Below are positions 12,320-64,000 of a stretch of 64,000 nt of DNA, in pieces. The notes beneath the pieces were generated by a model. That model was given only the letters and a program-made list of their open reading frames with translations, did not search any database and had not been told where the DNA came from. The DNA lies in assembly GCA_964019415.1 (NCBI GenBank), contig OZ025881.1, forward strand, positions 6,962,024 to 7,026,023. Reading direction: 5' to 3'. Position 1 is the stretch's first letter. Every line of letters starts with the position of its first letter. The DNA is from Ianthella basta. Taxonomy: Eukaryota; Porifera; Demospongiae; Verongiida; Ianthellidae. The position numbers and the translations under genes are program-made.

Positions 12320-20742
<8,423 letters not shown>

Positions 20743-30785: not shown

Positions 30786-33700
30786 ATGAAGGTACCATTG
30801 GTATTTGGGGCGATCTGGGTCGCTCTGTTGGTTGCACTGCAGGCCAGAGCAGTTACTGCCATCATTGCCGGGTGTCCCAGTGAGTTAAGGCAGCTAGTGA
30901 AGCGACAGCTTCAACACTGCATGTTTATACGCACCGCACTCCGCGGACTTCGCACACGAGGACGACGTAACGCTGTGTAGGTTTACTGCTGCGTATATAG
31001 GTTAATGAAAGAGAGAGAACATCGGAGCAAAGGAACGTAGCTATAGCTATCTAGCAGACGATAATTAGCTAAATCAGAAATACAGTTAACAGCCTGCATC
31101 TGATTCGTCTGTTACACGTTCCTCTCTCATAAGGATCGACGGCGTCAAATAATAGGTATTAACTCGATTGAGCTGGAATTGTATAGTCTGGTTGACTCTG
31201 ATGTATCTGTGCAGGTGAATGCCGCGGTAACTGGTCGAACTCAGGGTATGAGGCTTCCTGGTGCTTTCAAGGAGACGAAGTCCACTTCTGTGTGACGGCT
31301 ACAACAACTGGATGGATAGGGATTGGCTTCTCAGAGGATCAGAGCATGGTGAGCAGCTCTCCTGCAACATGCACGCACGCACATAGTGTATAGTTGTTCA
31401 ATGCATATTGCAAACACCCCTAATAATTTTTGTGTTTAATTACCTGTAGCCTCAGAGCGACATAGTCATGGGTGGAACAGATGCAGACGATGACACCTTC
31501 ATTTATGACATGTGAGCCTGAGACTCTGGCACTAGCGTGTGCTGTAGTTCAAGTTTACCTGTCATTCTACCTTCACAATGGAGTCCATTCATATGAATCT
31601 CTCTAATTATAAATGTTTGTTATATTGCATGTAAACTGCTGCATGTAGGTTTGCAGAAGCTCGGCAGCGTCCTCCTGTTGACATGGAACAGAATCTGGAG
31701 TGCACAGATGTTACACGTGAAGGTCCTCGTGTTACCATGTGCTTCAAGAGGAAGAAAGTTACAGGAGACGACCATGACCTTTCCTTGGATGTGTGTCGAT
31801 ACTTCCTCTATGCTTGGGGAGGAAGTATTGGTAACAATCCACCAGAAACACTTATGAGACACCAAGTGCGACATGCGCCCCGCATGCAAATATGTCCTCC
31901 CAGTCTGGAAACCTGTCCAGGCCCTCGTGAGTGGCACACATCGTGCAATCTACAGTGAAGGTAGTGTAAATTAGGTAGCTAATTAGAATCATGTAGTTAA
32001 TTTGTGCCATGCATGATTCATTTGGTATTTCCTTTGATGTGGTTAGACATACCAGCCACTTAGAGTCCATTATCAAATTTTGCTCACTGTTTTCAGACCC
32101 AAATGGCCAATGCTTGCTGCCAACAGTACATACGCATTACAACAGTACATCTGATTCACTTGCAAGCACTACAATAGATGAAGTTCTAAACGGACAGAAT
32201 GAGTATACATGTCGTATTATAGCAACCATACATGCAGAGTATACAGCAGGCTGTTGAGGTGGATGAGGAGAGGGCTCTAACACGAAAGCCCCTGGGCCCA
32301 TCCCTGATGGCCTGTATAGGCTGCCAAGCAAGGCATGCATATATATAATATAATATAATGTATGACTAGTTGGACTCCAGAGGCACTTGATATTACCCAC
32401 TGAGCTTAGCATTCACCCTCTAGACCTACATAGCTACATCAAACCATGCCATGGCCACATTGGGTATACCCTTCTTGTGTAGGCTAGCTGATCAGATGAG
32501 GAGTCCCCAGCAGTTGTGGGAGATTTAGCATGCACAATTAGTGACTATTATAAAGCCACAGCTAACAATAGTCTTCCCTGGTGATCTTTAATAATTTGGA
32601 TTGCACTGAGGACTGGTCACATGCAGTGTGCTTATTGACTATGGGACATTTTTGGGGTGGTGCTGTATGCAGCTGCTATCAGGTCTTTGCAGCTAATGTG
32701 ATCAACATGAGCTGACAGAAGCTGGAAGTCACATCTTGTATACCATCACTGCTAACACCTTCAGATCCATCCAGTTTCCCTTTGTCACTGCTAGTACAGT
32801 TCCATTATATGTTGGTGCACCTTTGTTCTTTCCCATGTCCTTGCAGAATGTCCAGCAGAAGGACAGGAGTACTTTGACGGTAGCTGTAAGTGTGTTCCCT
32901 GCACTGGTACATGTGAAGAGCCCAACCAAGTCTGCACCTTAGAGTGCCGCAGTGGATGTGGGTGTCCTGTTGGCACAGTGCTTGATGAACAGGCTAATGC
33001 TTGCATCAATGTGACTGAGTGCCCTATAGGTGAGTCATGTGACTGTCACATGACATGTGGACCATTCAGCAATAGAACTGATTGTAGGACAGTTGGTATG
33101 CACTTCCTCTTTGTAATCCTCAATTGCAGTGTGCCCAATCGAAGGACAGGAGTACTTTAACATCACTAAAGGGGAGTGTATTCCTTGTGCTGGTGTACGC
33201 ACTTGTAAAAACCTCAGCCCAGTCTGCCCCTTAGCGTGTGTTGGTGGATGTGGGTGTCCTACTGGTACAGTGCTTGATGAAGAGGCTAACGCTTGTGTTA
33301 ATGAGAGGGACTGCCCTAGAGGTGAGTCATGTGACTGTCACATGACCCTCACATGTCTGCATGCAGTCCCACACATAATGCAACATTTGCTGTATCAACA
33401 GATTGCAGGGAGGGGGATATGACCTACCGACATGGGGAATCATGGAACTGTTCAGATGGATGCAACAGCTGGTCAGTAGTCACTTTCACCTTTGCACTCA
33501 TTACTTGCCTTGCATTTCTCCTAATCCCTCTTGACTTGCTCTCTGCAGTTTTTGCAGTAATGGAACTGTTGGAACCACTCTATTGCTCTGTGGTAAGCAG
33601 CACATGTTACCTTCAGTAGTGACTGCTCATCCATACTCAACTCTCAACCCCCACAGACCCCTGTGTGGCAAGACCAGTCACTGGTCCTTGTAGGGCAGCA

Positions 33701-36700
33701 ATTCCGAGGTACTTCTACAACACTGAGAGTGGCAAGTGTGAGATGTTCACTTATGGAGGATGCAGAGGGAACCGGAATAACTTTGAGACAGTGACAGAGT
33801 GCACCAAGGAGTGTGGTAAGCAGTCTTGCATGGTCTTGGAACAGCATGTGACCATTGTGTGCTGATGTGTGGTATACAGCACTGCTGTCTGGTTGCATCC
33901 CCGCCTCTCTGTAGCTCTGAGGTTGAATGGAGTGTGTTCCCTGCCAGCTGAATCTGGTCCATGCCTGGGTTCCTTCCGGCGGTACTTCTACAACACCACT
34001 AGTATGGAGTGTGAAGAGTTCACCTATGGAGGGTGTTCAGGAAATGACAATAACTTTGCATCACAGGAAGACTGCCAAGAGTGCTGTGGTAAGTGTGTTC
34101 CATCTCTTGCCTCCCTGACCTGCAACCATGAGTGCAATGGTACCAGCACTGCTGTCCACGAGTTGTCTGTCTCTCTCCTTCAGGCTGTCCATACGAAGGA
34201 ATGAGGTACTACGATTGTGCTCCTTGCACTGGTACCTGTGAACAACCACAGGTGCCCTGTCGACGCGTATGCCGCCCTGGCTGTGCCTGTCCACCTGGTA
34301 CTGTGCTGCACGAGGGAAAGTGTGTCAATGTGAACGAGTGCAGTAAAGGTGAGTCACATGACTGTCACATGACTCACCTCTGTTGCAGAGTTGTTACATG
34401 TTACTCTCTGCACTGTGTTAGCTAACTGTACTGAAGGAGAAAGGCAGTACCAACATGGGGAAACATGGCTATGTTCAGACGGTTGCAACACCTGGTTAGT
34501 GTTCACCTTTTGTCAGTATCATCCTTCATTTCTCCTAATCATTTGTGACTTCCTCATATGCAGTTCATGCAGTGATGGAGTGGTTATATCCACCTTAAAG
34601 TTTTGTGGTAAGGAGCACATGCACCCGACCTTTATTTGTCAGGAAGACATGTACCTGAACTGCAGGAGTGACTGCTCATCCATACTCAATTAACACTCAC
34701 CCACCATAGACCCCTGTGTGGCAAGACCACTCACTGGTCCTTGTAGGGCAGCAATTCCGAGGTACTTCTACAACACTGAGAGTGGCAAGTGTGAGATGTT
34801 CACTTACGGAGGGTGCGGAGGGAACCAGAACAACTTTGAGACAGTGACAGAGTGCACCAAGGAGTGTGGTAAGCAGTCTTGCATGGTCTTGGAACAGCAT
34901 GTGACCATTGTGTGCTGATGTGTGGTATACAGTGTCAGTACTGCTGTCATCCTTTTGCTGTAGCTCTGAAGCTGAAGGGAGTGTGTTCACTGCCAGCTGA
35001 AACTGGTCCATGCAGAGCTGCCTTCCCACGCTACTTCTACAATGCCACTACCATGAAGTGTGAGCAGTTCATCTACGGAGGGTGTCTAGGCAATGAGAAC
35101 AACTTTCGCTCTGAGTACGCCTGCCAAGAATGTTGTGGTGAGTTTCATTTCACTTCTCATGGTGACCATTGCTGCTGTCCACTAGTTGTCAGTCCCTCCT
35201 CCTGCAGGCTGTCCATACAAAGGAATGAGGTACTATGAGATTGGGCAATGTGCTCCTTGCACTACCACCTGTGTGAATCCAGACGGGCCCTGTCCAGCAA
35301 TATGCCGCTCTGGCTGCGCCTGTCCTCCAGGCACTGTGCTGCATGAGGAGATGTGCATCTCCAAAGAGGAGTGTCCTCGTGAGTCACCTTCCAAAGAAGG
35401 CAAATAGACATGTCTGTTGTCAAGGGTCACGGGACATTTGGTTACCCAATTACTTTGTAATAATTATTTATCCTTGATTGCAGTGTGTCCAATCGAAGGA
35501 CAGGAGTACTTTAACATCACCGAAGGGGAGTGTATTCCTTGTGCTGGTGTACACACTTGTGAAAACCTCAGCCCAGTCTGCCCCTTAGCGTGTGTCGGTG
35601 GATGTGGGTGTCCTGCTGGTACAGTACTTGATGAAGAGGCTAACGCTTGTGTCAATGTGACTGACTGCCCTAAAAGTGAGCTATGTGACTGTCACATGAT
35701 CGTCATGCACGTCACCATCAGACAAGTGTGACATGACATTTGGACAAGTCAGCAGTATAGCTGTAAACTGTGGAATGAGGACTGGTTTGCACACGTATTC
35801 CAACCTCTCCTTCCAGAGTGTCCAGCAGAGGGACAGAAGTACTTTGATATCAGAGAAGGAGAGTGTGTTCCCTGCACTGGTACATGTAAGGAACCCAACC
35901 CAATTTGCACCTTAGAGTGTCGCAGTGGATGTGGGTGTCCTGTTGGCACAGTGCTTGATGAACAGGCTAATGCTTGCATCAATGTGACTGAGTGCCCTAT
36001 AGGTGAGTCATGTGACTGTCACATGACATGTGGACCATTCAGCAATAGAACTGATTGTAGGACAGTTGGTATGCACTTCCTCTTTGTAATCCTCAATTGC
36101 AGTGTGCCCAATCGAAGGACAGGAGTACTTTAACATCACTAAAGGGGAGTGTATTCCTTGTGCTGGTGTACGCACTTGTAAAAACCTCAGCCCAGTCTGC
36201 CCCTTAGCGTGTGTTGGTGGATGTGGGTGTCCTACTGGTACAGTGCTTGATGAAGAGGCTAACGCTTGTGTTAATGAGAGGGACTGCCCTAGAGGTGAGT
36301 CATGTGACTGTCACATGACCCTCACATGTCTGCATGCAGTCCCACACATAATGCAACATTTGCTGTATCAACAGATTGCAGGGAGGGGGATATGACCTAC
36401 CGACATGGGGAATCATGGAACTGTTCAGATGGATGCAACAGCTGGTCAGTAGTCACTTTCACCTTTGCACTCATTACTTGCCTTGCATTTCTCCTAATCC
36501 CTCTTGACTTGCTCTCTGCAGTTTTTGCAGTAATGGAACTGTTGGAACCACTCTATTGCTCTGTGGTAAGCAGCACATGTTACCTTCAGTAGTGACTGCT
36601 CATCCATACTCAACTCTCAACCCCCACAGACCCCTGTGTGGCAAGACCAGTCACTGGTCCTTGTAGGGCAGCAATTCCGAGGTACTTCTACAACACTGAG

Positions 36701-39486
36701 AGTGGCAAGTGTGAGATGTTCACTTATGGAGGATGCAGAGGGAACCGGAATAACTTTGAGACAGTGACAGAGTGCACCAAGGAGTGTGGTAAGCAGTCTT
36801 GCATGGTCTTGGAACAGCATGTGACCATTGTGTGCTGATGTGTGGTATACAGCACTGCTGTCTGGTTGCATCCCCGCCTCTCTGTAGCTCTGAGGTTGAA
36901 TGGAGTGTGTTCCCTGCCAGCTGAATCTGGTCCATGCCTGGGTTCCTTCCGGCGGTACTTCTACAACACCACTAGTATGGAGTGTGAAGAGTTCACCTAT
37001 GGAGGGTGTTCAGGAAATGACAATAACTTTGCATCACAGGAAGACTGCCAAGAGTGCTGTGGTAAGTGTGTTCCATCTCTTGCCTCCCTGACCTGCAACC
37101 ATGAGTGCAATGGTACCAGCACTGCTGTCCACGAGTTGTCTGTCTCTCTCCTTCAGGCTGTCCATACGAAGGAATGAGGTACTACGATTGTGCTCCTTGC
37201 ACTGGTACCTGTGAACAACCACAGGTGCCCTGTCGACGCGTATGCCGCCCTGGCTGTGCCTGTCCACCTGGTACTGTGCTGCACGAGGGAAAGTGTGTCA
37301 ATGTGAACGAGTGCAGTAAAGGTGAGTCACATGACTGTCACATGACTCACCTCTGTTGCAGAGTTGTTACATGTTACTCTCTGCACTGTGTTAGCTAACT
37401 GTACTGAAGGAGACAAGATGTACCAACATGGGGAAACATGGCAGTGCTCTGACGGTTGCAACACCTGGTTAGTGTTCACCTTTTGTCAGTATCATTCTTC
37501 ATTTCTCCTAATCATTTGTGACTTCCTATTATGCAGTTCATGCAGTGATGGAGTGGTTATATCCACCGAAATAGCTTGTGGTAAGCAGCACATATTACCT
37601 TCAGTAGTGACTGCTCATCGATCCCCAACTCTCACCCACCACAGACCCCTGTGTGGCAAGACCAGTCACTGGTCCTTGTAGGGCAGGAATTCCGAGGTAC
37701 TTCTACAACACTGAGAGTGGCAAGTGTGAGATGTTCACTTACGGAGGGTGTGGAGGGAACCAGAACAACTTTGAGACAGTGACAGAGTGCACCAAGGAGT
37801 GTGGTAAGCATGCAGTCTTGTATGGCTTTGGAACAGCATGTGACCATTGTGTGCTGATGTGTGGTATACAGTGTCAGTACTGCTGTTTTCCATTGCTGTA
37901 GCTCTGAAGCTGAAGGGAGTGTGTTCACTGCCAGCTGAAACTGGTCCATGCAGAGCTGCCTTCCCACGCTACTTCTACAATGCCACTACCATGAAGTGCG
38001 AGCAGTTCATCTACGGAGGGTGTCTAGGCAATGAGAACAACTTTCGCTCTGAGTACGCCTGCCAAGAATGTTGTGGTGAGTTTCATTTCACTTCTCATGG
38101 TGACCATCACTGCAGTCTACTAGTTGTCAGTCCCTCCTCCTGCAGGCTGTCCATACAAAGGAATGAGGTACTATGAGATTGGGCAATGTGCTCCTTGCAC
38201 TACCACCTGTGTGAATCCAGACGGGCCCTGCCCAGCAATATGCCGCTCTGGCTGCGCCTGTCCTCCTGGCACCGTGCTGCATGATGAGATGTGCATCCCC
38301 AAAGAAGATTGTCCTCGTGAGTCACCTACAAGGAAGGCAAACAGATGTGTCTGTCAGCAGGGTTTGCATGACTGTCACATGACTGTCACATTATTAGACA
38401 GAAATGTGACATGACATGTGGACCAGTCAGCAATAGAACTGATTGTACATGTAGGGCAGTTGGTATGCACTTCCTCTCTATAATCCTCAATTGTAGTGTG
38501 CCCTATCAAAGGACAGGAGTACTTTAACATCACCGAAGGGGAGTGTATTCCTTGTGCTGGTGTACACACTTGTGAAAACCTCAGCCCAGTCTGCCCCTTA
38601 GCGTGTGTCGGTGGATGTGGATGTCCTGCTGGTACAGTGCTTGATGAAGAGGCTAACGCTTGTGTCAATGTGACAGACTGCCCTAAAAGTGAGTCATGTG
38701 ACTGTCACATGATCGTCATGCACGTCACCATCAGACAAGTGTGACATGACATTTGGACAAGTCAGCAGTACAGCTGTAAACTGTGAAATGATGACTGGTT
38801 TGCACACGTATTCCAACCTCTCCTTCCAGAGTGTCCAGCAGAGGGACAGAAGTACTTTGATATCAGAGAAGGAGAGTGTGTTCCCTGCACTGGTACATGT
38901 AAGGAACCCAACCCAATTTGCACCTTAGAGTGCCGCAGTGGATGTGGGTGTCCTGCTGGTACAGTGCTTGATGAACAGGCTAATGCTTGTGTCAATGTGA
39001 CTGAGTGCCCTACTGGTGAGTCACATGACTATCACATGACAGGTACAGATGCATTCATCCTGGACCCTGTTCAATACTACAGCTGTGCCCTGCCCAGAAG
39101 AGTGCTCGCACACTTTCTGTCGAATGAATGGTCCCAATACAGAGTGCTCAGTGTAAGAGTCATGCTAGCATCTCTGTACTCCAGGCATACAGTGCACACA
39201 GCTGTATTGCACTGGCTGTGTAGACTGTGTTGAGTGGTGCTAACTATAATGATTGGCGGAGACAGCTTAAATAATTTTGCCATGCCTTCTTCCTCTCCCA
39301 GACCTGGATCCACTTCACCGGCGTGCACTGGAACGTGTCATGTGACCAAGTGTCGGGCCTGCTATTACTCCAAGAGAGTGCAGCCCTGTCCAACAGAGTG
39401 CCCATATTCTTGTGGAGAGGATCCCGAGAGCAGGTGTTTCAACCAGTGGGGCCGCTGTGTCAAGGATAACCTGACAAATGTTAGTG

Positions 39487-39549
<63 letters not shown>

Positions 39550-39678
39550 TGTGTGTGCGCATGTGTGCATATGTCTCTCTCTCTCTCTCTCTCTTTTTTC
39601 TCTTTGTCTCAGGTTCTCAAAAAGCGCAGACAGCAGAAAGCTAACAGATTCAAGTGTGTGGACCCATGTGAGTGCTGA
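30786..39678 (+). CDS. Gene C: secreted DOMON protein with TIL/VWC-like/Kunitz inhibitor array, 1569 aa, 34 exons
   Basis: Exons: 30786-30879, 31215-31348, 31450-31511, 31649-31926 (signal peptide and DOMON, to residue about 189); TIL 32847-33029, 33130-33321; VWC-like 33402-33471+33549-33592; Kunitz 33657-33815, 33915-34088; TIL 34184-34348; VWC 34422-34494+34564-34607; Kunitz 34710-34868, 34964-35137; TIL 35208-35378, 35484-35675, 35817-36002, 36103-36294; VWC 36375-36444+36522-36565; Kunitz 36630-36788, 36888-37061; TIL 37157-37321; VWC 37395-37467+37537-37580; Kunitz 37645-37803, 37902-38075; TIL 38146-38316, 38497-38688, 38830-39015; Cys-rich cap 39083-39150, 39193-39233, 39302-39479, 39613-39678. 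Sum 4710 nt, exactly 1570 codons. DOMON marks: [24 protein letters not shown]. Kunitz marks: [17 protein letters not shown], six Cys. All modules are phase 1-1; VWC modules are split by a phase-2 intron. No membrane segment: a secreted protease-inhibitor array, P1 mostly Arg (trypsin-like targets). Cap splice sites are least certain. Confidence 0.85.
32947..34439 (+). repeat. Cassette copy 1 (~1.49 kb), apparently identical to 35920-37412
   Basis: Contains end of TIL, TIL, VWC-like, Kunitz, Kunitz, TIL and the start of the next VWC exon, with all introns. Every stretch I compared is identical to the copy 2973 bp downstream; identity stops at GAAGGAGA in the VWC exon, where one copy reads AAGGCAG and the other CAAGATG. 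Confidence 0.8.
35920..37412 (+). repeat. Cassette copy 2 (~1.49 kb), offset 2973 bp
   Basis: Second copy of the cassette at 32947-34439. Sequence identity includes introns, so duplication or gene conversion was very recent, or the assembly duplicated one copy. Confidence 0.8.
39489..39600 (+). repeat. (GT)n then (CT)n microsatellite in last intron of gene C
   Basis: GT run followed by CT run, placed between the donor at 39480 and the acceptor before 39613. In gene D the same intron has only a CT-rich tract, so the GT expansion is specific to C. Confidence 0.93.
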
Positions 39679-40608: not shown

Positions 40609-40610
<2 letters not shown>

Positions 40611-40649: not shown

Positions 40650-40651
<2 letters not shown>

Positions 40652-43848: not shown

Positions 43849-46800
43849 ATGAAGGTACCATTGGTATTTGGGGCGATCTGGGTCGCTCTGTTGGTTGCAC
43901 TGCAGATCAGAGCAGTTACTGCCATCATTGCCGGGTGTCCCAGTGAGTTTAGGCAGCTAGTGAAGCGACAGCTTCAACACTTCATGTTTATACGCACCGC
44001 ATGCACTCTGCGGACTTTCTCACACGAGGACGGCGTAACGTTCACTGCTGCGTAGGTTAATGAAAGAGAGAGAACATCGGAGCAAAGGAACGTAGCTATA
44101 GCTACCTAGCAGACGATAATTAGCTAAATCAGAGCTATAGTTAACAGCCTGCTTCTGATTCGTCTGTTACACGTTCCTCTCTCATAAGGATCGACGGCGT
44201 CAAATAATAGGTATTAACTCGATTGAGCTGGAATTGTATAGTCTGGTTGACTGTGATGTATCTGTGCAGGTGAATGCCGCGGTAACTGGTCGAACTCAGG
44301 GTATGAGGCTTCCTGGTGCTTTCAAGGAGACGAAGTCCACTTCTGTGTGTCGGCTACAACAACTGGATGGATAGGGATTGGCTTCTCAGAGGATCGGAGC
44401 ATGGTGAGCAGCTCTCCTGCAACATGCACGCACGCACATAGTGTATAGTTGTTCGATGTATATTGCAAACTTCCATAATATTTTTTGTGTTTAATTACCT
44501 GTAGCCTCAGAGCGACATAGTCATGGGTGGAACAGATGCAGACGGTGACACCTTCATTTATGACATGTGAGCCTGAGACTCTGGCACTAGCGTGTGCTGT
44601 AGTTCAAGTTTACCTGTCATTCTACCTTCACAATGGAATCCATCCATATGAGTCTCTCTTAGACTAATTATAAATGTTTGTTATATTGCATGTATATACT
44701 GCTGCATGTAGGTTTGCAGAAGCTCGACAGCGTCCTCCTGTTGACATGGAACAGAATCTGGAGTGCACAAGTGTTACACGTGAAGGTCCTTGTATTACCA
44801 TGTGCTTCAAGAGGAAGAAAGTTACAAGAGACGTCCGTGACCTTTCCTTGGATGTGTGTCGACACTTCCTCTATGCTTGGGGAGGACAAGTTGGTAACAA
44901 TCCACCAGAAACACTTATGAGACACCAAATGCGACATGCGCCCCCCATGATGATATGTCCTCCCAGTCTGGAGACCTGTCTAGGCCCTCGTGAGTGGCAC
45001 ACATTGTGCAATCTACAGTGAAGGTAGTGTGTAGTAGTTAATTAGAACCATGTAGTTAATTAGTCTCGTTCCCAGACCCACCTCCGCCATTCCGCCAATT
45101 TTATTTAGATAAGGGGGCGGAGGAAGGGTCTGGTAACATTGCCATACCGTTTCTGTACCTGCGCCTGAATCCTGGCGCGACCAATCAGATCACAGAACGT
45201 TATTGTATTTCGCAACTTCATATGCGTTTATGCACGTGATTAACTACGTTTATTCATCGGTAACTCCGCCTCCTCGGTACAGAAACGGTATGGCAATGTT
45301 ACCAGACCCTTCCTCCGCCCCCCTATCTAAATAAAATTGGCGGAACGGCGGAGGTGGGTCTGGGAACGAGACTAGTAGTTAATTTCTGCCATGCATGATT
45401 CATTTGGTATTTCCTTTGATGTGGTTAGACATACCAGCCACTTAGAGTCCATTATCAAATTTTGCTCACTGTTTTCAGACCAAATGGCCAATGCTTGCTG
45501 CCAACAGTACATACGCATTACAACAGTACATCTGATTCACTTGCAAGCACTACAATAGATGAAGTTCTAAACGGACAGAATGAGTATACATGTCGTATTA
45601 TAGCAACCATACATGCAGAGTATACAGCAGGCTGTTGAGGAGGATGAGGAGAGGGCTCTAACACGGAAGCCCCTGGGCCCATCCCTGATGGCCTGTATAG
45701 GCTGCCAAGCAAGGCATGCATATATATAGTATAATCTATATCTATATATATAGTATGGTGATTGCGCAACTATAGGGATTTAAGCATTGGCAGGTGGTCC
45801 TATATATGTGATATAGACCTGAAAAGAGGTCTGATATCACGATATCAACGCTCTGATTGCGCAACAGGTCTGATATCAAGAAGGAATGTAATGAAACCAG
45901 AGCCAAATGTGTGTACTGTCAGGCGAAGCAGTCTTACCATTTCACTGTGGCCGTGACAATCAGTGCTGCGGAGGATCTTGACGCTCCAAGAAAAAACGCG
46001 ACCGCTAAAAATCGTCGCACGAAGGAAAGTCAGTTGGACAAGATACATGCGTAAAGGAACGTATTCTAGGACACGAGCACTGAGTCCGGCTCTGTTGCGC
46101 GAAACTATGGCGTGGAAGACGCGCAGACACGGTCCGTTGAGCGACTTCTTCAGATGACGAACACAAAGTCCAGCCGGATATCGTCGAAAGCTCTCAAATG
46201 TGGTTAAAATTGTCCCCTCTAGTTCTGAGTCCGCATCGAAGTCGGTGTTCTGCCAGAAAAGAAGCGTTTTCAGGACTCTCCGTGCAGCACCCTGTCACGG
46301 CCACAGCCAAAACTGCTGACTGTGCATTATTTTGAATTCGGTAATCTCATTGGTCAGCGTACTGCCAATAGGCGCGCAGTATTCTCATTGGTCAGTCCTG
46401 AAGCTTGTTGTGACGTCACGGAGGCGTCTACTGAATGCAATGGTGCCGTAGCCCGTTCCAGAAGGTTCAGTGACGTAATGCAGGCGCTTATGGAATGCAA
46501 ATGGCGTCGTCGCCGGAGAGGTCTAGGCTCGATATTGCTGCAGAAGGTTCGTTCCTGTTGCGCACTCACCATACTATATAAGACATATAGTACGGTAGGT
46601 CGGTCTATAGCCTCTATATAGGACCTCGGCGCTCATATTTACCTCGGCGCTTCGCGCCTCGGTAAATATGTAAGCGCCTCGGTCCTATATATCGGCTATA
46701 GACCTCCCTACCGTACTATATGTATTACATATAAAGAGGTATTGAGCAGAACGGTTGTCCGCGAAGTGCTCCCGCGAGCAATGGCGCATGGACACCAAAC

Positions 46801-49800: not shown

Positions 49801-52800
49801 TGTGGGTGTCCTGTTGGTACAGTGCTTGATGAACAGGCTAACGCTTGTGTCAGTGTGACAGACTGCCCTAAAGGTGAGTCATGTGACTGTCACATGACCC
49901 TCACATGTCTGCATACAGTCCCACACATAATGCAACATTTGCTGTATCAACAGATTGCAGAGAAGGGGATATGACCTACCAACATGGGGAAACATGGCAG
50001 TGCTCTGATGGTTGCAACACCTGGTTAGTGTTCACCTTTTGTCAGTATCATCCTTCATTTCTACTAATCATTTGTGACTTCCTATTATGCAGTTCATGCA
50101 GTGATGGAATGGTTATATCCACCAAAATAGGTTGTGGTAAGCACCACATGTTACCTTCAGTAGTGACTGCTCATCGATCCCCAACTCTCAACTCCCACAG
50201 ACCTCTGTGTGGCAAGACCAGTCACTGGTCCTTGTAGGGCAGCAATTCCGAGGTACTTCTACAACACTGAGAGTGGCAAGTGTGAGATGTTCACTTATGG
50301 AGGGTGTGGAGGGAACCGGAACAACTTTGAGACAGTGACAGAGTGCACCAAGGAGTGCGGTAAGCAGTCTTGTATGGCCTTGGAACAGCATGTGACCATT
50401 GTGTGCTGATGTGTGGTATACAGCACTGCTGTCTGGTTGCATCCCTGCCTCTCTGTAGCTCTGAGGTTGAATGGAGTGTGTTCCCTGCCAGCTGAAACTG
50501 GTCCATGCCGGGGTTCCTTTCGGCGGTACTTCTACAACACCACTAGTATGGAGTGTGAAGAGTTCACCTATGGTGGGTGTTCAGGAAATGACAATAACTT
50601 TGCATCACAGGAGGACTGCCAAGAGTGCTGTGGTGAGTTGTGTTCCATCTCTTGCCTCCCTGGCCTGCAACCATGAGTGCAATGGTACCAGCACTGCTGT
50701 CCACAAGTTGTCTGTTTCTCTCCTTCAGGCTGTCCATACGAAGGAATGAGGTACTACGATTGTGCTCCTTGCACTGGTACCTGTGAACAACCACAGGTGC
50801 CCTGTTCACGCGTATGTCGTCCTGACTGTGCCTGTCCACCTGGTACTGTGCTGCACAAAGGAAAGTGTGTCAATGTGAACGAGTGCCCTAAACGTGAGCC
50901 TGCTGTCACATGACTGTCACATGACTGTCACATTACTATTAGATGAGTGTCACATTACATGTGGACACATGTAGGCTGCAAACAATGACATTGCTGCAAT
51001 GCAGTACTGGTTTGTACACATCCCCGTTCCTCTCCTTCCAGAGTGTCCAGCAGAGGGACAAAAGTACTTTGATAGCAGTGAACGAGAGTGTGTTCCCTGC
51101 ACTGGTACATGTGAAGAGCCCGAAGTATCCTGCCTCTTCGTGTGCCGCAGTGGATGTGGGTGTCCTGTTGGTACAGTGCTTGATGAACAGGCTAACGCTT
51201 GTGTCAGTGTGACAGACTGCCCTAAAGGTGGGTCATGTGACTGTCACATGACCCTCACATATCTGCATACAGTCCCACACATAATGCAGCATTTGCTGTA
51301 TCAACAGATTGCAGAGAAGGGGATATGACCTACCGACATGGGGAAACATGGCAGTGCTCTGACGGTTGCAACACCTGGTTAGTGTTCACCTTTTGTCAGT
51401 ATCATCCTTCGTTTCTACTAATCATTTGTGACTTCCTATTATGCAGTTCATGCAGTGATGGAATGGTTATATCCACCAAAATAGGTTGTGGTAAGCACCA
51501 CATGTTACCTTCAGTAGTGACTGCTCATCGATCCCCAACTCTCAACCCCCACAGACCCCTGTGTGGCAAGACCAGTCACTGGTCCTTGTAGGGCAGCAAT
51601 TCCGAGGTACTTCTACAACACTGAGAGTGGCAAGTGTGAGATGTTCACTTACGGAGGGTGTGGAGGGAACCGGAACAACTTTGAGACAGTGACAGAGTGC
51701 ACTAAGGAGTGTGGTAAGCAGTCTTGTATGGCCTTGGAACAGCATGTGACCATTGTGTGCTGATGTGTGGTATACAGCACTGCTGTCTGGTTGCATCCCT
51801 GCCTCTCTGTAGCTCTGAGGTTGAATGGAGTGTGTTCCCTGCCAGCTGAAACTGGTCCATGCCGGGGTTCCTTCCGGCAGTACTTCTACAACACCACTAG
51901 TATGGAGTGTGAAGAGTTCACCTATGGTGGGTGTTCAGGAAATGACAATAACTTTGCATCACAGGAGGACTGCCAAGAGTGCTGTGGTGAGTGTGTTCCA
52001 TCTCTTGCCTCCCTGACCTGCAACCATAAGTGCAATGGTACCAGCCTGCTGTCCACGAGTTGTCTGTCTCTCTCCTTCAGGCTGTCCATACGAAGGAATG
52101 AGGTACTACGATTGTGCTCCTTGCACTGGTACCTGTGAACAACCACAGGTGCCCTGTCCACGCGTATGCCGTCCTGACTGTGCCTGTCCACCTGGTACTG
52201 TGCTGTACAAAGGAAAGTGTGTCAATGTGAACGAGTGCCCTAAACGTGAGCCTGCTGTCACATGACTGTCACATTACTATTAGATGAGTGTCACATTACA
52301 TGTGGACACATGTAGGCTGCAAACAATGACATTGCTGCAATGCAGTACTGGTTTGTACACATTCCCGTTCCTCTCCTTCCAGAGTGTCCAGCAGAGGGAC
52401 AAAAGTACTTTGATATCAGTGAAGGAGAGTGTGTTCCCTGCACTGGTACATGTGAAGAGCCCGAAGTATCCTGCCCCTTTGTGTGCCGCAGTGGATGTGG
52501 GTGTCCTGCTGGTACAGTGCTTGATGAATTGGCTAACGCTTGTGTCAATGTGACTGAGTGCCCTAGAGGTGAGTCACATGACTATCACATGACAGGTACA
52601 GATGGATTCATCCTGGACCCTTTCCAATACTACAGCTGTGCCCTGCCCAGAAGAGTGCTCGCACACTTTCTGTCGAAGGAATGGTCCCAACACAGAGTGC
52701 TCAGTGTAAGAGTCATGCTAGTATCTCTGTACACCAGGCATACAGTGCACACAGCTGTATTGCACTGGCTGTGTAGACTGTGTTGAGTGGTGCTAACTAT

Positions 52801-53178
52801 GATGATTGGCGGACACAGTTTAATGTTGCCATGGTTACATCCCCTCCCAGACCTGGATCCACTTCACCGGCATGCACTGGGGGGTGTCATGTGACCAAGT
52901 GTCGGGCCTGCTATTACTCCAGGAGAGTGCAGCCCTGTCCAACAGAGTGCCCATATTCTTGTGGAGAGGATCCCAAGAGCAGGTGTTTTAACCAGTGGGG
53001 CCGCTGTGTGAGCGATAACCTGAAAAATGTTAGTGCTCTCCCTCCCCTCCTCCTGCCTCTCTCTACCTTCCTAACTCCCCATTGTATATCTCTCTCTTTC
53101 TCTTTGTCTCAGGTTATCACAAGGAGCAGACAGCAGAAAGCTAACAGATTCAAGTGTGTGGACCCATGCGAGTGCTGA
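43849..53178 (+). CDS. Gene D: secreted DOMON protein with shorter TIL/VWC-like/Kunitz array, 898 aa, 21 exons
   Basis: Exons: 43849-43942, 44270-44403, 44505-44566, 44712-44989 (signal peptide, DOMON); TIL 49694-49873; VWC-like 49954-50023+50093-50136; Kunitz 50201-50359, 50459-50632; TIL 50729-50893, 51042-51227; VWC 51308-51377+51447-51490; Kunitz 51555-51713, 51813-51986; TIL 52081-52245, 52383-52568; Cys-rich cap 52636-52703, 52746-52786, 52851-53028, 53113-53178. Sum 2697 nt, exactly 899 codons with no internal stop. The array is two cassettes TIL-VWC-Kunitz-Kunitz-TIL at a 1354-bp offset. The first TIL lacks one codon (Glu after CPA) relative to gene C, an in-frame 3-bp deletion. Kunitz P1 is Arg in all four modules ([16 protein letters not shown]). 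Intron 4 is about 4.7 kb against 0.92 kb in gene C because of transposons. Cap: [18 protein letters not shown], final CVDPCEC. Intact and probably functional. Confidence 0.85.
45061..45374. mobile_element. MITE with long terminal inverted repeats and 9-bp target duplication (Mutator-like)
   Basis: Termini TAGTCTCGTTCCCAGACC ... GGTCTGGGAACGAGACTA, arms about 100 bp. It is flanked by GTAGTTAAT on both sides (45052-45060 and 45375-45383). The same intron of gene C has a single GTAGTTAAT and no element (near 31991), a paralogous empty site. No frame inside. Confidence 0.85.
46734..46948. mobile_element. Foldback-ended element (215 bp) with a second, truncated tandem copy
   Basis: Ends AAGAGGTATTGAGCAGAA ... 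TTCTGCTCAATACCTCTT. The first about 170 bp recurs at 46963-47127 with very few changes but without the right terminus. An adjacent GC-rich palindrome (46621-46681, CCTCGGCGC ... GCGCCTCGG) and another TAGACC/GGTCTA inverted pair lie just upstream. Confidence 0.6.
47395..47600 (+). pseudogene. Helitron helicase (PIF1-like) C-terminal remnant, frameshifted
   Basis: One frame reads FAMSISKAQGQNLKVAGLYL, matching the AxTINKSQGQTL region of PIF1-type Helitron helicases. After about LEPPC the homology continues in the next frame as HGQFYMGCSRVGCPNNLF, the conserved SR-containing end motif. The shift marks a dead copy. About 70 residues remain. It lies upstream of the Helitron 3' terminus at 47997, the expected order. 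Confidence 0.7.
47966..47997 (+). mobile_element. Internal Helitron 3' terminus (hairpin + CTAG)
   Basis: 10-bp stem AGACCTGCCC/GGGCGGGTCT (one G-T pair) around GAA, then GTCCG, then CTAG followed by T. Confidence 0.7.
48005..48130. mobile_element. Foldback element, ~125 bp
   Basis: Arms TTAAATGCTGACCAA ... TTGGTCAGCATTTAA with an inner pair GTGTCTCTGAGATTTAGA/TCTAAATCTTCAGAGACAC and a GGGCGCGAAGCGCCC centre. Confidence 0.65.
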
Positions 53179-55948: not shown

Positions 55949-56000
55949 GGAGTACTGAAGGAAATAAGCCAGCAAACAGTCAAACAAGCGAGTCACTGGA

Positions 56001-56637
56001 ATGGTCCAACGAAGAGCCATGGCATCTGATGAGCAGACATACTATGAAGATATACTACGTTACTTGCAAGATGAGAGTTACCGTAAAAAGGACTGACTAA
56101 AAATTACAAAAGATGTATTCGCAAATGTTCTAATGACATTGTTAGCCACCAAGGCTTTCTGTACATAAAAGATGTGAATGGCCATGAAAGAAAATGGATT
56201 GCAGATCCTACCAGACAACAGGCTGTTATGCAGGCATGCCATGATGATAAAGCAGGTATGATGAGAATTAATTACTGCAGCTATCTGCCAATTAAACAAA
56301 CATTCTTTAAAGGACATACACCACAAGGGGACAATACCAGCGCTATGTTCAATGTTTCACTGTCACTGCCTTGTACAGGTGGAGGTCACTTTGGTCGAGA
56401 CAAAACTTTGCACAAAATTTGTTTCCATCTAGGCACACTTCCCCGTTGGACACTGTTCGGTCTTGCCAGATCGTAGAAGTTGTGTGCCATTGTCACACTC
56501 AGCCTGAGTGTCCCATGTTACAGTGCTCTACCTGTCAAGAGGTGTACCATGAGCAGTGTGAGGATTTCCCAAAGTCTTTCAGTAACAACGAAGCAAAGAC
56601 ATGGAAATGCAGAACATGCAAAAACAGCAAAGATTGA
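56001..56637 (+). pseudogene. Ginger-type transposase remnant: integrase H2C2 segment plus PHD finger, DDE core missing
   Basis: Starts MVQRRAMASDEQTYYEDILR. A one-base shift at the AAAAA run near 56088 is needed to continue into LTKNYKRCIRKCS, and onward through WIADPTRQQ to QACHDDKAG. A GT-AG intron (56256-56378) then joins to GGHFGRDKTLHKICFHL, the integrase zinc-binding (H2C2) motif. The catalytic integrase core expected next is absent, and the frame runs to a stop at about 56474. In another frame a PHD-like finger follows: CHCHTQPECPMLQCSTC, YHEQC, WKCRTCK, ending at 56637. So this is an internally deleted, twice-shifted copy, inactive as a transposase. A homopolymer sequencing error could explain the first shift but not the missing core. 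Confidence 0.68.
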
Positions 56638-57256
56638 CTTCACATCGCGTAACTCTCCCGTAGGCTCCAGTTTCAACAGTAATTAAATTTCCATTAAATG
56701 CAACTGGTACTTTACAGCAGTTAGCTAGTTAGCTATTAGCAACATTTTACCAAACTAACTTTAACAAACAAACATTTTTGCAAACTTGCATACAGCATGT
56801 ATTACCATCTATTACTTACCTTTATTGTCTTGTAATGAGCAGAATCGCGATGTCATGAATATCTGGGAAGCCCGTTTGCATGTGGAGCGCTCATATTAGA
56901 AGGCGGGATGGAAGGATGTGAAACGGTAGTCATCCTGGAGAGCCTACTACGCAAGGCACTTGAATTCCAAAGTCTTCAACACAACGACTCCACTAGCAGC
57001 GCCCGATATGGGGGAAACTGGTATCCTAGAGGGGGGAACCACGGTCCTAAGCGGCAAATCCAACAGGGGGGAACTCGCATCCTAAGGCGGAACCCATCTT
57101 CTAGGAGGCACGTTCCGGGGGGGAACCGTAATCCTAGGAGGCCAGGTCCGCCGGAACCCGTATACTAGTATTGGAGTTCCGGGGGGAACTGAAATGGGGG
57201 GAACTGAAATCCTGTTACACCGGCCACAGATTATATAAGGATTCCAACCGGTTCCC

Positions 57257-57263
57257 TATAAAA
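57257..57263 (+). promoter_or_regulatory. TATA box of gene E
   Basis: TATAAAA followed by CGAACATATCTGAC, 43 bp upstream of the ATG. The TATA and CGAAC context match genes C and D, but sequence upstream of about 57224 is transposon, not the shared promoter. Confidence 0.62.
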
Positions 57264-57299
57264 CGAACATATCTGACTGCATTTGCCGCTAAGTCCGCC

Positions 57300-60200
57300 A
57301 TGAAGGTACCACTGGTGTTTCTGGCGATCTGGGCCACCCTGTTAGTTGTACTGCAGACCAGTGCAGCTACTGCCGTCATTGCCGGGTGTCCCAGTGAGTT
57401 ATAATTATAGGCGACAGCGTAAAAGCGATAATCTGCGCACCACGTGCAGACTTCTACGAGCGATTGAGGATGGCGTAATACTGTGGACCGTGGCTAGTTG
57501 CCGTTGGGGGTGTGACGAATAGAGAGAGCGTAGGGGCACAGAACGAGTCACTACCTACCGACCAATCTTATTATAAATGGCTCCTTTGCAGCGGAGCAAG
57601 GAACGCGTGGCTTCCTAGTGGACAATGAATCAGAAACACGAAGCATCCTGTTCCTGGTTCGAATTCATTGTCTGTTGCGTTCCTTAGCCGCTACGAAACT
57701 CTCTGTCTTTCAGTAGCTATTAAAAGATAGTGCACTTCTCTCACGATTGAACTGGAAGTGTAGCTAGCTAGTCTGTTTGACTCTGCTCTATCTGTGCAGG
57801 TGAATGCAGCGGTGAGTTTTCGAACTCGGGGTATGAGGCTTCCTGGTGCTTTCAAGGAGACGAAGTCCACTTCTGTGTGTCAGATACGACAGATGGATGG
57901 ATAGGGATTGGCTTCTCAACGGACAGGAGGATGGTAGGTAGCTGGCTATACGTAGCTTTCATGCAACTATATTTCGAAACATACAAACAACATTTTGTAG
58001 TTGAATGTATACCTGTACTGTAGCCTCAGAGTGACGTTGTGATTGGTGGAACAGATACGACTGGCGTCCCCTTCATCTATGATGGGTGAGTTGGTCCAAG
58101 ACTGTGGCAGAATATCACAGTCATGTGTTGGAGTCAGTGCACTCTTTACAGTAAAGTCATTCTTAGTATATTGATATTAATAATTAGAATTAGAATCTTT
58201 CTAAATATGATGCTTATAATGATGTACTATATATACTGCTGCATGTAGGTTTGCAGAAGCTCGGCAGCGTCCTCCTGTTGACATGGTACAGAATCTGGAG
58301 TGCACAAATGTTACACGTGAAGGTCCTCGTGTTTCCATGTGCTTCAAGAGGAAGAAGGTTACAGGAGACGACCGTGACCTTTCCTTGGATGTGTGTCGGA
58401 ACTTTCTCTATGCTTGGGGAGGAGAAGTTGGTAACAATCCACCAGAAACACTTATGCAACACCAAGTGCGACGTGCACCTCGCATGCAAATATGTCCGCC
58501 CAGTCTGGAAACCTGTCCAGGCCCTCGTGAGTGACACACAATCATGCATTCTACAGTGAAGGTGGTGTAAAGTAGATAATTAGAACCATGGGAGGGCATA
58601 ATGCACCAGAAACGCTTATGAGGCACTCAAGGCAAAAGCGCACCTAGTGAACAGATATGCCCCCCTAGTCCAGAAACCTGTCCAGGCCCTCGTGAGGGAT
58701 CAACACACAAACATGCACTCTACAGTGAAGGTAGTATGGAATATTAATGTCATGCATGTAATTTTTAGCATGATTAATTGGTGTTTCCTTTTATGTGGAT
58801 ACCAGACACTTTCTGACATCAAATTTAAAACTGTCATCTGTCTGGTTTCAGACTCCAAATTGCCAATGCTTACTGCAACAGTTAATATATATTTCAAATA
58901 AATAATACAAAGTTTTTCATTGACACATCCGAGAGGGCGTATAATATCATGCAATTAGCAACCATGTGGAGTCTGCAGCAGTCTATTATATATGTGAGGT
59001 GGATGTGGAGAGAGCTGCAACAAGGAAGCCCCCAGGGCTCACCAGACAGCCTTAGGCTAGCTGCTTGGCATCCATGTATGTGCAGTCCTATCTAGACTAA
59101 GAGTCTAGAAGTGCTTGTTACCACCCGCTGGGCGTAGCATTCACCCTGTAGACCTGTTATGCATTACACATCTTTCCTGACCTTCCTTGGTGAACTAAGT
59201 TTGGATCGCAGTGGAGTGGTCAGTGAGTAGGCTATTGACTATTGGATATCTTTGGGGTGCACAGTACAAGCTATTAGTACAGTTGCAATCAGGTTTTCCA
59301 GCTATAACATGGATTGACAGAATTGCATATTCCTGTGACTTATCGTATACTGGAGTGGAACATGGCTAAGATGGCCACCTCTCTATAAAGGTCAGCTAGA
59401 CTGCAGCTGGCCCGCAGTTGGTTGCCTTAGACAGGTTTAACTGTGTCACTGCTAAGCCTAACAGCTACCATCCAGCTTCCTTATGTCACTACAAATATAG
59501 TAACGTTCCGGCTATGCAGCATATCTTCTCTCAAATTGTAGCATGAGTGTGCATGAAGTTGGTGCACCTTTGTTCTTTCCCATGTCCTTGCAGAATGTCC
59601 AGCAGAAGGACAGGAGTACTTTGACGGTAGCTGTAAGTGTGTTCCCTGCACTGGTACATGTAAGGACCCTGACCAAGTCTGCACCTTAGAGTGCCGCAGT
59701 GGATGTGGGTGTCCTGCTGGTACAGTGCTTGATGAAGAGGCTAATGCTTGTGTTAATGAGAGGGACTGCCCTAGAGGTGAGTCACATGACAGTCACATGA
59801 CTGCAGTCCCATTCATATACCATTTCTGCTGTTCCAACAGACTGCATGGAAGGAGATATGATCTACCAACATGGGGAAGCCTGGAACTGTTCAGACGGAT
59901 GCAACACCTGGTCAGTGGTCACTGTCACCTTCACTGGAGCTCATCACCACATGCTTTGCATTTCGCCAAATCCCTCTTGACTTGCTCTCTGCAGTTCGTG
60001 CAATAATGGATCTGTTGTATCCACCAAAATAGCTTGTGGTAAGGAGCATAGGTAGTGAATCACTAGTGACTGCTCATCCATACTCAACACTCAACCCCCA
60101 CAGACCCCTGTGTGGCAAGACCAGTCACTGGTCCTTGTAGGGCAGGAATTCCGAGGTACTTCTACAACACTGAGAGTGGCAAGTGTGAGATGTTCACTTA

Positions 60201-63200
60201 CGGAGGGTGCAGAGGGAACCGGAACAACTTTGAGACAGTGACAGAGTGCACCAAGGAGTGTGGTAAGCAGTCTTGTATGGCCTTGGAACAGCATGTGACC
60301 ATTGTGTGCTGATGTGTGGTATACAGCACTGCTGTCTGGTTGCATCCCCGCCTCTCTGTAGCTCTGAGGTTGAATGGAGTGTGTTCCCTGCCAGCTGAAA
60401 CTGGTCCATGCCGGGGTTCCTTCCAGCGGTACTTCTACAACACCACTAGTATGGAGTGTGAAGAGTTCACCTATGGAGGGTGTTCAGGAAATGACAATAA
60501 CTTTGCATCACAGGAGGACTGCCAAGAGTGCTGTGGTAAGTGTGTTCCATCTCTTGCCTCCCTGACCTCCAACCAAATCTTGTGTCAATACTGAGAACTA
60601 TAACTCGCTTAGTATTGCCACATAGGTGCAGGATGGTTTGGTGCAGATATTGCTTGTGTTACACTATTGAAGATACTATCAGTGTACTTTTATGGAGGTT
60701 ATCAATGATATCAGATTCCATAATGGTCACCTTGCATTAGGTAGCCATTTTCATGATGTCTCGACACCATGACTGATTTGTAAGCCCAAACTGACTATAT
60801 GCCTAAGGGATACCAATGTGGATGGCTATTATTAAAAGTACAAAGAAAACCCTATTTAAATTCCTGGCTATGCCTCTGACAATTAGTGCATCAGTACCAT
60901 TCCTAGCTGCTGTCCACGGGTTGTCTGTCTCTCTCCTTCAGGCTGTCCATATGAAGGAATGAGATACTACGATTGTGCTCCTTGCACTGGTACCTGTGAA
61001 CAACCACAGGTGCCCTGTCCACGCGTATGCCGCCCTGGCTGTGCCTGTCCACTTGGTACTGTGCTGCACGAGGGAAAGTGTGTCAATGTGAATGAGTGCA
61101 GTAAAGGTGAGTCACATGATAGTCACATGACTGTCACATGACTCACCTCTGTTGCGGAGTTGTTACATGTTACTCTCTGTACTGTGTTAGCTAACTGTAC
61201 TGAAGGAGAAAGGCAGTACCAACATGGGGAAACATGGCAGTGCTCTGATGGTTGCAACACCTGGTTAGTGTTCACCTTTTGTCAGTATCATCCTTCATTT
61301 CTCCTAATTATTTGTGACTTCCTATTTTGCAGTTCATGCAGTGATGGAGTGGTTATATCCACCAAAATAGCTTGTGGTAAGGAGCACATGCACCTGACCT
61401 TCATTTGTCAGGAGGACATGAACCTGAACTGCAGGAGTGACTGCTCATCCATACTCAACACTCACCCCCCACAGACCCCTGTGTGGCAAGACCACTCACT
61501 GGTCCTTGTAGGGCAGCAATTCCGAGGTACTTCTACAACACTGAGAGTGGCAAGTGTGAGATGTTCACTTATGGAGGGTGCAGAGGGAACCGGAACAACT
61601 TTGAAACAGTGACAGAGTGCACCAAGGAGTGTGGTAAGCAGTCTGGTGTGCCTTGGAACATCATGCGACCATCTTGTGCTGATGTGTGGTATACAGTGTC
61701 AGTACTGCTGTCATCCTTTGCTGTAGCTCTGAAGCTGAAGGGAGTGTGTTCACTGCCAGCTGAAACTGGTCCATGCAGAGCTGGCTTCCCACGCTACTTC
61801 TACAATGCCACTACAATGAAGTGCGAGCAGTTCATCTACGGAGGGTGTCTAGGCAATGAGAACAACTTTCGCTCTGAGTACGCCTGCCAAGAATGTTGTG
61901 GTGAGTTTCATTTCACTTCTCTTGGTGACCATCACTGCAGTCCACTAGTTGTCTGTCCTTCCTCCTGCAGGCTGTCCATACAAAGGAATGAGGTACTATG
62001 AGATTGGGCAATGTGCTCCTTGCACTACCACCTGTGTGAATCCAGACGGGCCCTGCCCAGCAATATGCCGCTCTGGCTGTGCCTGTCCTCCAGGCACCGT
62101 GCTGCATGATGAGATGTGCATCCCCAAAGAGGATTGTCCTCGTGAGTCACCTTCCAAAGAAGGCAAATAGACATGTCTGTTGCCAAGGGGTCATGGACAT
62201 TTGGTTACCCAATTACTTTGTAATAATTATTTATCCTTGATTACAGTGTGTCCAATCGAAGGACAGGAGTACTTTAACTTCACTAAAGGGGAGTGTATTC
62301 CCTGCACTGGTACATGAGAAGAGCCAGACCAAGTCTGCCTTTTAGTGTGTCGCGGTGGATGTGGGTGTCCTGCTGGTACAGTTCTCGATGAAGAGGCTAA
62401 CGCTTGTGTCAATGTGACTGACTGCCCTAAACGTGAGCCTGCTGTCACATGACTGTCACATGACTGTCACATTACTATTAGATGAGTGTCACATTACATG
62501 TGGACACATGTAGGCTGCAAACAATGACATTGCTGCAATGCAGTACTGGTTTGTACACATCCCCGTTCCTCTCCTTCCAGAGTGTCCAGCAGAGGGACAG
62601 AAGTACTTTGATATCAGTGAAGGAGAGTGTGTTCCCTGCACTGGTACATGTAAGGAACCCAACCAAGTCTGCACCTTAGAGTGCCGCAGTGGATGTGGGT
62701 GTCCTGCTGGTACAGTGCTTGATGAAGAGGCTAACGCTTGTGTCAATGTGACTGAGTGCCCTATAGGTGAGTCATGTGACTGTCACATGACATGTGGACA
62801 AGTCAGCAATAGAAACAATTGTAGGGCAGTTGGTATCCACTTCCTCTTTGTAATCCTCAATTGCAGTGTGCCCAATCAAAGGACAGGAGTACTTTAACAT
62901 CACTAAAGGGGAGTGTATTCCTTGTGCTGGTGTACACACTTGTAAAAACCTCAGCCCAGTCTGCCCCTTAGCTTGTGTTGGTGGATGTGGGTGTCCTACT
63001 GGTACAGTGCTTGATGAGGAGGCTAATGCTTGTGTCAATGAGAGTGATTGTCCTAAAGGTGAGTCATGTGACTGTCACATGACCCTCACATGTCTGCATG
63101 CAGTCCCACACATAATGCAACATTTGCTGTATCAACAGATTGCAGGGAAGGGGATATGACCTACCGACATGGGGAATCATGGAACTGTTCAGATGGATGC

Positions 63201-64000
63201 AACACCTGGTCAGTGGTCACTTTCACCCATTGCACTCATTACTTGCCTTGCATTTCTCCTAATCCCTCTTGACTTGCTCTCTGCAGTTTTTGCAGTAATG
63301 GAACTGTTGGAACCACTCTAGTGGGTTGTGGTAAGCAGCACATGTTACCTTCAGTAGTGACTGCTCATCCATACTCAACTCTCAACCCCCACAGACCCCT
63401 GTGTGGCAAGACCAGTCACTGGTCCTTGTAGGGCAGCAATTCCGAGGTACTTCTACAACACTGAGAGTGGCAAGTGTGAGATGTTCACTTACGGAGGGTG
63501 CGAAGGGAACCGGAACAACTTTGAGACAGTGACAGAGTGCACCAAGGAGTGTGGTAAGCAGTCTTGTATGGCTTTGGAACAGCATGTGACCATTGTGTGC
63601 TGATGTGTGGTATACAGCACTGCTGTCTGGTTGCATCCCTGCCTCTCTGTAGCTCTGAGGTTGAATGGAGTGTGTTCCCTGCCAGCTGAAACTGGTCCAT
63701 GCCGGGGTTTCTTCCAGCGGTACTTCTACAACACCACTAGTATGGAGTGTGAAGAGTTCACCTATGGAGGGTGTCCAGGAAATGACAATAACTTTGCATC
63801 ACAGGAAGACTGCCAAGAGTGCTGTGGTGAGTTGTGTTCCATCTCTTGCCTCCCTGGCCTGCAACCATGAGTGCAATGGTACCAGCACTGCTGTCCACGA
63901 GTTGTCTGTCTCTCTCCTTCAGGCTGTCCATACGAAGGAATGAGGTACTACGATTGTGCTCCTTGCACTGGTACCTGTGAACAACCACAGGTGCCCTGTT
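57300..64000 (+). CDS. Gene E: third DOMON-TIL/VWC-like/Kunitz paralogue, runs off window end, one nonsense exon
   Basis: Exons: 57300-57393, 57800-57933, 58024-58085, 58249-58526 (signal peptide MKVPLVFLAIW, DOMON with [10 protein letters not shown] and FLYAWGG); TIL 59594-59776; VWC-like 59841-59910+59995-60038; Kunitz 60104-60262, 60362-60535; TIL 60942-61106; VWC 61191-61263+61333-61376; Kunitz 61475-61633, 61727-61900; TIL 61971-62141; TIL 62247-62432 with an in-frame TGA; TIL 62581-62766, 62867-63058; VWC 63139-63208+63287-63330; Kunitz 63395-63553, 63653-63826; TIL 63923 onward, truncated by the window. The most diverged of the three DOMON domains. All Kunitz P1 positions are Arg. The TGA exon is phase 1-1 and 186 nt, so skipping it would restore a full-length product; otherwise the protein stops after about half its array. 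The last exons and cap are outside the window. Confidence 0.8.
58596..58693 (+). pseudogene. Decayed duplicate of the 3' half of DOMON exon 4
   Basis: About 100 bp after exon 4, the sequence CACCAGAAACGCTTATGAGG ... CCAGAAACCTGTCCAGGCCC again matches the end of the exon, including the donor-like CTCGTGAG, but has indels and a stop. It is a partial exon duplication in gene E intron 4, absent from genes C and D at that place. Confidence 0.7.
62247..62432 (+). pseudogene. TIL exon of gene E with in-frame stop (TGA at 62315-62317)
   Basis: Same length (186 nt), phase, acceptor and donor as its functional paralogues, but the codon after GTA-type CTGT (ACA TGT in the others) is ACA TGA, converting a conserved Cys into a stop. 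The rest of the exon stays in frame and keeps its Cys pattern, so the lesion looks young. Confidence 0.8.

Follow-up and report, generated by a model that had tools for sequence, protein, structure and literature searches.

The locus and its gene models

The DNA considered here, referred to as the window, is a stretch of 64,000 nucleotides (nt) from the sponge Ianthella basta (assembly GCA_964019415.1, contig OZ025881.1, here C14). It corresponds to C14:6962024-7026023 of a 209-Mb genome. Among 45 cathepsin-like exon matches in this genome, five first exons were inspected for silicatein, a sign of siliceous sponges; each has the ordinary GSCW site, which speaks neither for nor against a sponge. 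The window harbours three paralogous genes, C, D and E, which lie on the forward strand, start at positions 30786, 43849 and 57300 and share near-identical first exons. The distance from start to start is 13063 bp between C and D and 13451 bp between D and E. Each gene is predicted to encode a signal peptide, a DOMON domain, an array of protease-inhibitor-type modules and a C-terminal cysteine-rich domain. On the evidence of sequence, this joining of domains is real and, for animal genes, unusual; the function proposed for it is inferred.

The spliced models were built by dynamic programming and then refined by comparison of the copies and by the cysteine pattern of the Kunitz modules. Modules are denoted T (TIL), V (a short VWC/pacifastin-like module), and K and k (two Kunitz types). 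Gene C (30786..39678) comprises 34 exons with a single terminal stop and encodes 1556 amino acids, including 23 modules. Its exon 1 (30786..30879), which has counterparts in D and E, specifies the predicted signal peptide and is preceded by a TATATA motif 56 nt 5' of the ATG; in all three copies TATAAA or TATATA is found 43–68 nt 5' of this codon. The DOMON domain is distributed over 31215-31348, 31450-31511 and 31649-31926, with a profile match at 31238, and is followed by the inhibitor array (32847..39015) in the order T T V K k T V K k T T T T V K k T V K k T T T. The last three exons (39083-39152, 39302-39479 and 39613-39678) encode the C-terminal cysteine-rich domain.

Gene D (43849..53178) displays the same layout in 20 exons, 885 amino acids and 11 modules: the DOMON domain occupies 44270-44403, 44505-44566 and 44712-44989 (profile match at 44293), the array T V K k T T V K k T T extends over 49694..52568 and the C-terminal cysteine-rich domain over 52636..53178. 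The DOMON part is separated from the first TIL module by an intron of 4704 bp (44990..49693). Within this intron, the interval 46300-48200 includes repeat sequences that occur many times in the genome, in at least two parts with different copy sets.

The part of gene E inside the window (57300..64000) contains the signal peptide, the DOMON domain (57800-57933, 58024-58085 and 58249-58526; profile match at 57823) and the first 16 modules, a broken one counted. Completion with downstream DNA places the stop at window-equivalent position 71769 (C14:7033792), ∼7.8 kb past the window end. The complete gene has 45 usable exons and encodes 2027 amino acids without the broken module, the array then reading TVKkTVKkTTTVKkTVKkTTTTVKkTVKkTTT. 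The broken TIL exon (62247-62432) carries an in-frame TGA where its relatives have a cysteine codon; the corresponding genomic match, with one TGA, lies at C14:7024272. Owing to this TGA, the reading frame of E closes only when the exon is left out; the exon is frame-neutral, its length being a multiple of three and its borders phase 1 on both sides.

Pseudogene status was rejected for C and D in view of their open frames. GT and AG delimit all introns of the models (33 in C, 19 in D and 44 in E), which is a consistency check and no test, because model building demanded these dinucleotides. Exons 1–4, encoding the signal peptide and the DOMON domain, have the same lengths in every copy (94, 134, 62 and 278 nt). 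The introns between them show 129, 37 and 36 gap columns in the pairwise alignment of C with E, and 18, 0 and 8 in that of C with D. Equal exon lengths set against intron indels, clear for C and E, together with strong profile matches, indicate that the genes are real beyond chance.

A first-pass annotation of this DNA had described three real same-strand paralogues about 13 kb apart, with 23, 11 and at least 16 modules in C, D and E; these statements are borne out, E reaching 33 modules with the downstream DNA. It had also stated that the frames of C and D close exactly over 34 and 21 exons, which stands for C and is corrected to 20 exons for D. It overlooked the nonsense codon in E and the C-terminal cysteine-rich domain, which C, D and E share with Knickkopf/Skeletor-like DOMON genes of this genome.

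Domain composition of the products

The array of C contains 11 TIL, 4 short VWC-like and 8 Kunitz modules, that of D 5, 2 and 4, and that of E 15 (one broken), 6 and 12, giving totals of 23, 11 and 33. Pfam profiles were scanned against the whole D product, pieces of C and the DOMON part of E. The DOMON profile (PF03351, cut-off 32.7 bits) is matched at 76.7 bits in C, 71 bits in D and 73.3 bits in E (E values 2.4e-21, 1.4e-19 and 2.7e-20), over profile positions 2-124, 2-124 and 2-123, respectively. In the D product, four stretches exceed the cut-off of Kunitz/BPTI (PF00014, E value 6.2e-68) and five that of TIL (PF01826). All 24 Kunitz modules retain six or seven cysteines; 22 of them have Arg at P1 and the other two Leu. 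A single Kunitz exon, used as query, matched BPTI, TFPI and bikunin across almost its full length. The intact TIL modules, from which the broken E copy is excluded, possess ten cysteines in 27 cases and 11 in the remaining three of 30.

The short module fits less well. Seven of its 12 copies were tested, and all seven score 18.8–25.1 bits against VWC (PF00093, cut-off 27.6), reaching profile position 32–36 of 57, and 17.9–26 bits against Pacifastin_I (PF05375, cut-off 27.9). Thus, of the domains named in the first-pass annotation, DOMON, Kunitz and TIL pass their thresholds and VWC does not, pacifastin being about as close and also below. Each short module is interrupted by an intron in phase 2; introns in the array are otherwise mostly phase 1. 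Six cysteines are present in all 12 copies of this module (for example at 33402-33592), and its final five residues take seven forms (TKIAC, TLLLC, TEIAC and others), a pattern that a changing, exposed loop might produce.

Cysteine accounts for 13–14% of the products. All three products have an N-terminal signal peptide as predicted by eye and hydropathy. Past residue 60, the highest hydropathy score of any 19-residue window is 1.41 in C, 1.45 in D and 1.62 in E, compared with 2.05–2.19 at the N-terminus; given these low values, no membrane anchor is seen in any of the three.

The DOMON domain and its relatives

DOMON sequences abound in this genome: at least 154 exon-level matches were recorded, with clusters at C19:4.78-4.88, C2:2.32-2.47, C1:8.07-8.78, C1:13.44-13.54 and C12:0.49-0.52 Mb. 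One genome search scored 150 of 189 candidates and another all 86. The DOMON domains of C, D and E are closest to a group other than the Knickkopf-like one, with 34–40% identity in exon 4. An intron directly after a Met codon is present in all four loci of this closest group that were found by pattern (L046, whose motif is changed, was missed by the pattern), and is absent from all five dopamine beta-hydroxylase-like (DBH-like) loci and from the L029 gene, whose intron pattern differs from that of C, D and E. The L030 region (C14:5.64 Mb) shares this intron and shows 34% identity with C in DOMON exon 4; unlike C, D and E, however, it shows same-strand EGF repeats after the DOMON exons and no inhibitors, the link between DOMON and EGF being suggested by adjacency. 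Among solved structures, dopamine beta-hydroxylase was the sole DOMON protein matched, weakly (E value 0.025 with a single sequence and 0.0033 with a profile). A DOMON query against plasmids returned no match.

DOMON domains bind heme or sugars in other proteins. Met76 and His168 of C, D and E, 92 residues apart, are candidates for the heme-type ligand pair in an alignment that includes no heme-bound structure. This recalls the heme-type DOMON of cellobiose dehydrogenase, AIR12 and CYBDOM proteins; in contrast to these, the models of C, D and E include no cytochrome b561 or dehydrogenase part, and their DOMON gave no sequence match to heme-type structures. Two reports on plant CYBDOM proteins give Met89/His180 for CRR (91 apart, PMC10784552) and M90/H174 for HYP1 (84 apart, PMC10784544). 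The DBH-like paralogue L001 also has a Met/His pair, 93 residues apart, so that heme binding by the DOMON of C, D and E is no more than a possibility.

The C-terminal domain and known systems

No Pfam match was obtained with the last three exons. Genome-wide, the C-terminal domain has 15 matches: three at this locus, six on C14:5.02-5.13 Mb and six elsewhere. The domain of C is 46–52% identical to eight homologues over ∼60 amino acids. Four of the six matches on C14:5.02-5.13 Mb have a listed DOMON match 3.7–4.3 kb upstream on the same strand; among the matches listed, none lies within a few kb of the other two or of the six elsewhere. This pairing of DOMON and C-terminal domain in other parts of the genome supports the view that both ends of C, D and E belong to one gene. 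The order in L029 is DOMON, an At5g54830-like match (E value 0.0023, below cut-off) and C-terminal domain; the middle match is weak, since a genome-wide search with the At5g54830 profile found none, its controls being silent too.

One DOMON of the C14:5.02-5.13 Mb group is directly preceded by a DM13 match. In Knickkopf/Skeletor proteins, DM13 likewise stands ahead of DOMON (PMC4140639). This family (DM13-DM13-DOMON-C-terminal region) resembles C, D and E in consisting of secreted DOMON proteins, and the genes of that kind in this genome carry a homologous C-terminal cysteine-rich domain; inhibitor arrays are confined to C, D and E in this comparison. A genome-wide DM13 profile search, which weak matches could escape, yielded two matches, neither at the C/D/E locus.

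Several Kunitz domains in one secreted protein are a feature shared with multi-Kunitz papilin, TFPI and bikunin, the last two of which also match in sequence; to our knowledge, none of the three carries a DOMON domain. Within the genome, TIL and Kunitz modules occur together at C14:4.73-4.78, C2:13.80-13.97 and C18:5.79 Mb, and weak short-module matches are present at the first; unlike C, D and E, these loci have no DOMON among the matches listed. WAP- and VWC-like segments were noticed by eye near C14:4.77 Mb. The first-pass annotation knew of no described family in which DOMON is joined to TIL-(VWC-like)-Kunitz-Kunitz cassettes, and this agrees with the open-access PubMed Central literature, as represented mostly by titles and abstract openings, in which no such fusion was found; in the text available for PMC6003135, DOMON and Kunitz reside in separate proteins. 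The main domains are familiar, save for the C-terminal domain, which has no name, and the sub-threshold short module; what would be new is the joining of DOMON to protease-inhibitor arrays.

Array growth and origin

The arrays include internal duplications of 2.97 kb in C (95.5% identity), 1.35 kb in D (95.4%) and 4.7 kb in E (96.0%). Assembly error was rejected as the source of the arrays, as the repeats mostly differ by 4–5%. The duplication in C is 100% identical across five 250-bp windows (33000-34250), and this stretch may represent a local assembly duplication. Symmetric phase-1 exons permit the gain or loss of modules without a change of frame. Array length would vary by unequal exchange between near-identical cassettes, with the symmetric introns holding the frame.

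Of 49 Kunitz candidates in the genome, all of which were scored, 45 proved to be matches; this locus accounts for 24 of them, C2:13.80-13.97 Mb for 13, C18:5.79 Mb for six and C14:4.77 Mb for two. The locus would therefore be a main Kunitz source of the animal. The relationships described above suggest that C, D and E are chimeras that drew on three sources, with DOMON from one group of DOMON genes, the modules from an inhibitor array and the C-terminus from a Knickkopf-like gene. If expressed as modelled, they would provide a clear case of animal exon shuffling, as each of the three segments (N-terminal, middle and C-terminal) is most closely related to a different group of genes that still exists in the genome.

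Proposed function and alternatives

The interpretation that we favour, and to which as a whole we give somewhat better than even chances, is that the three genes represent a single gene type copied in tandem, whose products are large secreted proteins rich in disulfides and likely act as matrix-held inhibitors of trypsin-like proteases. By a rule known for the family, Arg at the Kunitz P1 position points to trypsin-like targets, and this is the residue in 22 of the 24 modules. The DOMON domain, perhaps together with the C-terminal domain, would bind a fixed ligand of the matrix or cell surface, either heme or polysaccharide; the array would present numerous inhibitor loops and so block serine proteases of the trypsin-like kind at that site, and the protein would act as an anchored protease shield outside cells. 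An analogy for matrix holding is offered by Knickkopf, which binds chitin, the insect protein Knk showing strong affinity for colloidal chitin, and shields it from chitinases (PMC4140639). DOMON proteins also feature in skeletal proteomes of a sponge (PMC4633127) and a mollusc (PMC6003135). A bolder version, which we hold to be quite improbable, envisages lineage-specific anchored shields in which the DOMON domain, by binding heme or a polysaccharide, would attach as many as 33 inhibitor-type modules to a scaffold outside the cell, with array length tuned by frame-neutral cassette exchange; a redox-active heme beside 115 to 280 cysteines could make the array redox-responsive.

A number of points tell against the favoured interpretation. 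The gene models are drawn from genomic DNA sequence alone, and one module of E contains a nonsense codon, E being otherwise open over its 45 exons. The structure model of the C-terminal domain is unusable (mean predicted local distance difference test score, pLDDT, 42.8). Some Kunitz proteins are not protease inhibitors, and binding to a matrix is suggested by analogy. Across the signal peptide and DOMON, the nonsynonymous (dN) and synonymous (dS) divergences between C and D are 0.052 and 0.024 (22 and three changes), and purifying selection is not seen. The motifs around the gene borders are also awkward: the intron between DOMON and array holds one AATAAA in D (45330, 341 nt in) and one in E (58897, 371 nt in), no AATAAA lies within 1.5 kb after the ends of C, D and E, and TATAAA is also found 298 nt (C) and 210 nt (E) before the first TIL exon.

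The placement of these motifs would suit a division of each unit into two genes, a short DOMON gene and then a separate inhibitor gene, wrongly joined by the model. So would the length of the DOMON-array intron (920 bp in C, 4704 in D and 1067 in E), which exceeds that of every intron preceding it, as well as the short tail and stop that the frame read past the DOMON donor yields in every copy. We nevertheless consider such a division quite improbable. The donor of DOMON exon 4 is GTGAGT in phase 1, the first TIL exon starts in phase 1, and both features are identical in the three copies; the frame that continues beyond the donor has another ending in E. Between the first TIL exon and the upstream stop, no in-frame ATG exists in any copy, and a simple screen of the intron for a shared signal-peptide-like start exon with a phase-1 donor found none, its one candidate being unshared and confined to E. 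Moreover, the intron of C is devoid of AATAAA and ATTAAA, the long intron of D consists at least partly of repeat DNA, and the domain that follows the array is the partner of DOMON elsewhere in the genome. The introns of C and E have both ends and two blocks of ∼69% identity in common; those of C and D are too similar to tell. Polyadenylation and TATA motifs leave the matter undecided; ATTAAA occurs within 1.5 kb after the gene end once in C, three times in D and not in E. On balance, the sequence is better read as a single gene per unit.

Granted a single gene, the array might serve as a structural or adhesive spacer, its inhibitory activity incidental or lost. The great regularity of the cassettes, the 13–14% cysteine and the sub-threshold VWC/pacifastin form of the short module are compatible with this role, which we regard as unlikely: every Kunitz module has kept its six or seven cysteines and a P1 Arg or Leu, and the 30 intact TIL modules their ten (27) or 11 (three) cysteines. 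A further scheme, in which the inhibitors are made for release, for example as deterrents, and DOMON is a relic, could draw on the tandem copies with their varying array size and on the C–D changes in DOMON, which bear no mark of purifying selection. It appears very improbable, as the DOMON domain is complete and Met76 and His168 are kept in all three copies; in addition, dN and dS for the signal peptide and DOMON are 0.108 and 0.205 between C and E, and 0.113 and 0.235 between D and E, a ratio of ∼0.5 in both cases.

Neighbouring features of the window

Upstream of gene C, the window contains VWD and C8-3_MUC4 exons on the forward strand (16557-18077), and, on the reverse strand, VWD accompanied by a weak match to AMOP (23059-24765). 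The two groups probably mark a pair of mucin-4-like genes of opposite orientation. Further upstream, positions 2905-10659 are occupied by a 7.75-kb degenerate minisatellite with a unit of 20–30 bp, equivalent to ∼386 copies of a 20-bp unit. Long open frames run through it in several frames, and the two that were scanned gave no Pfam match.

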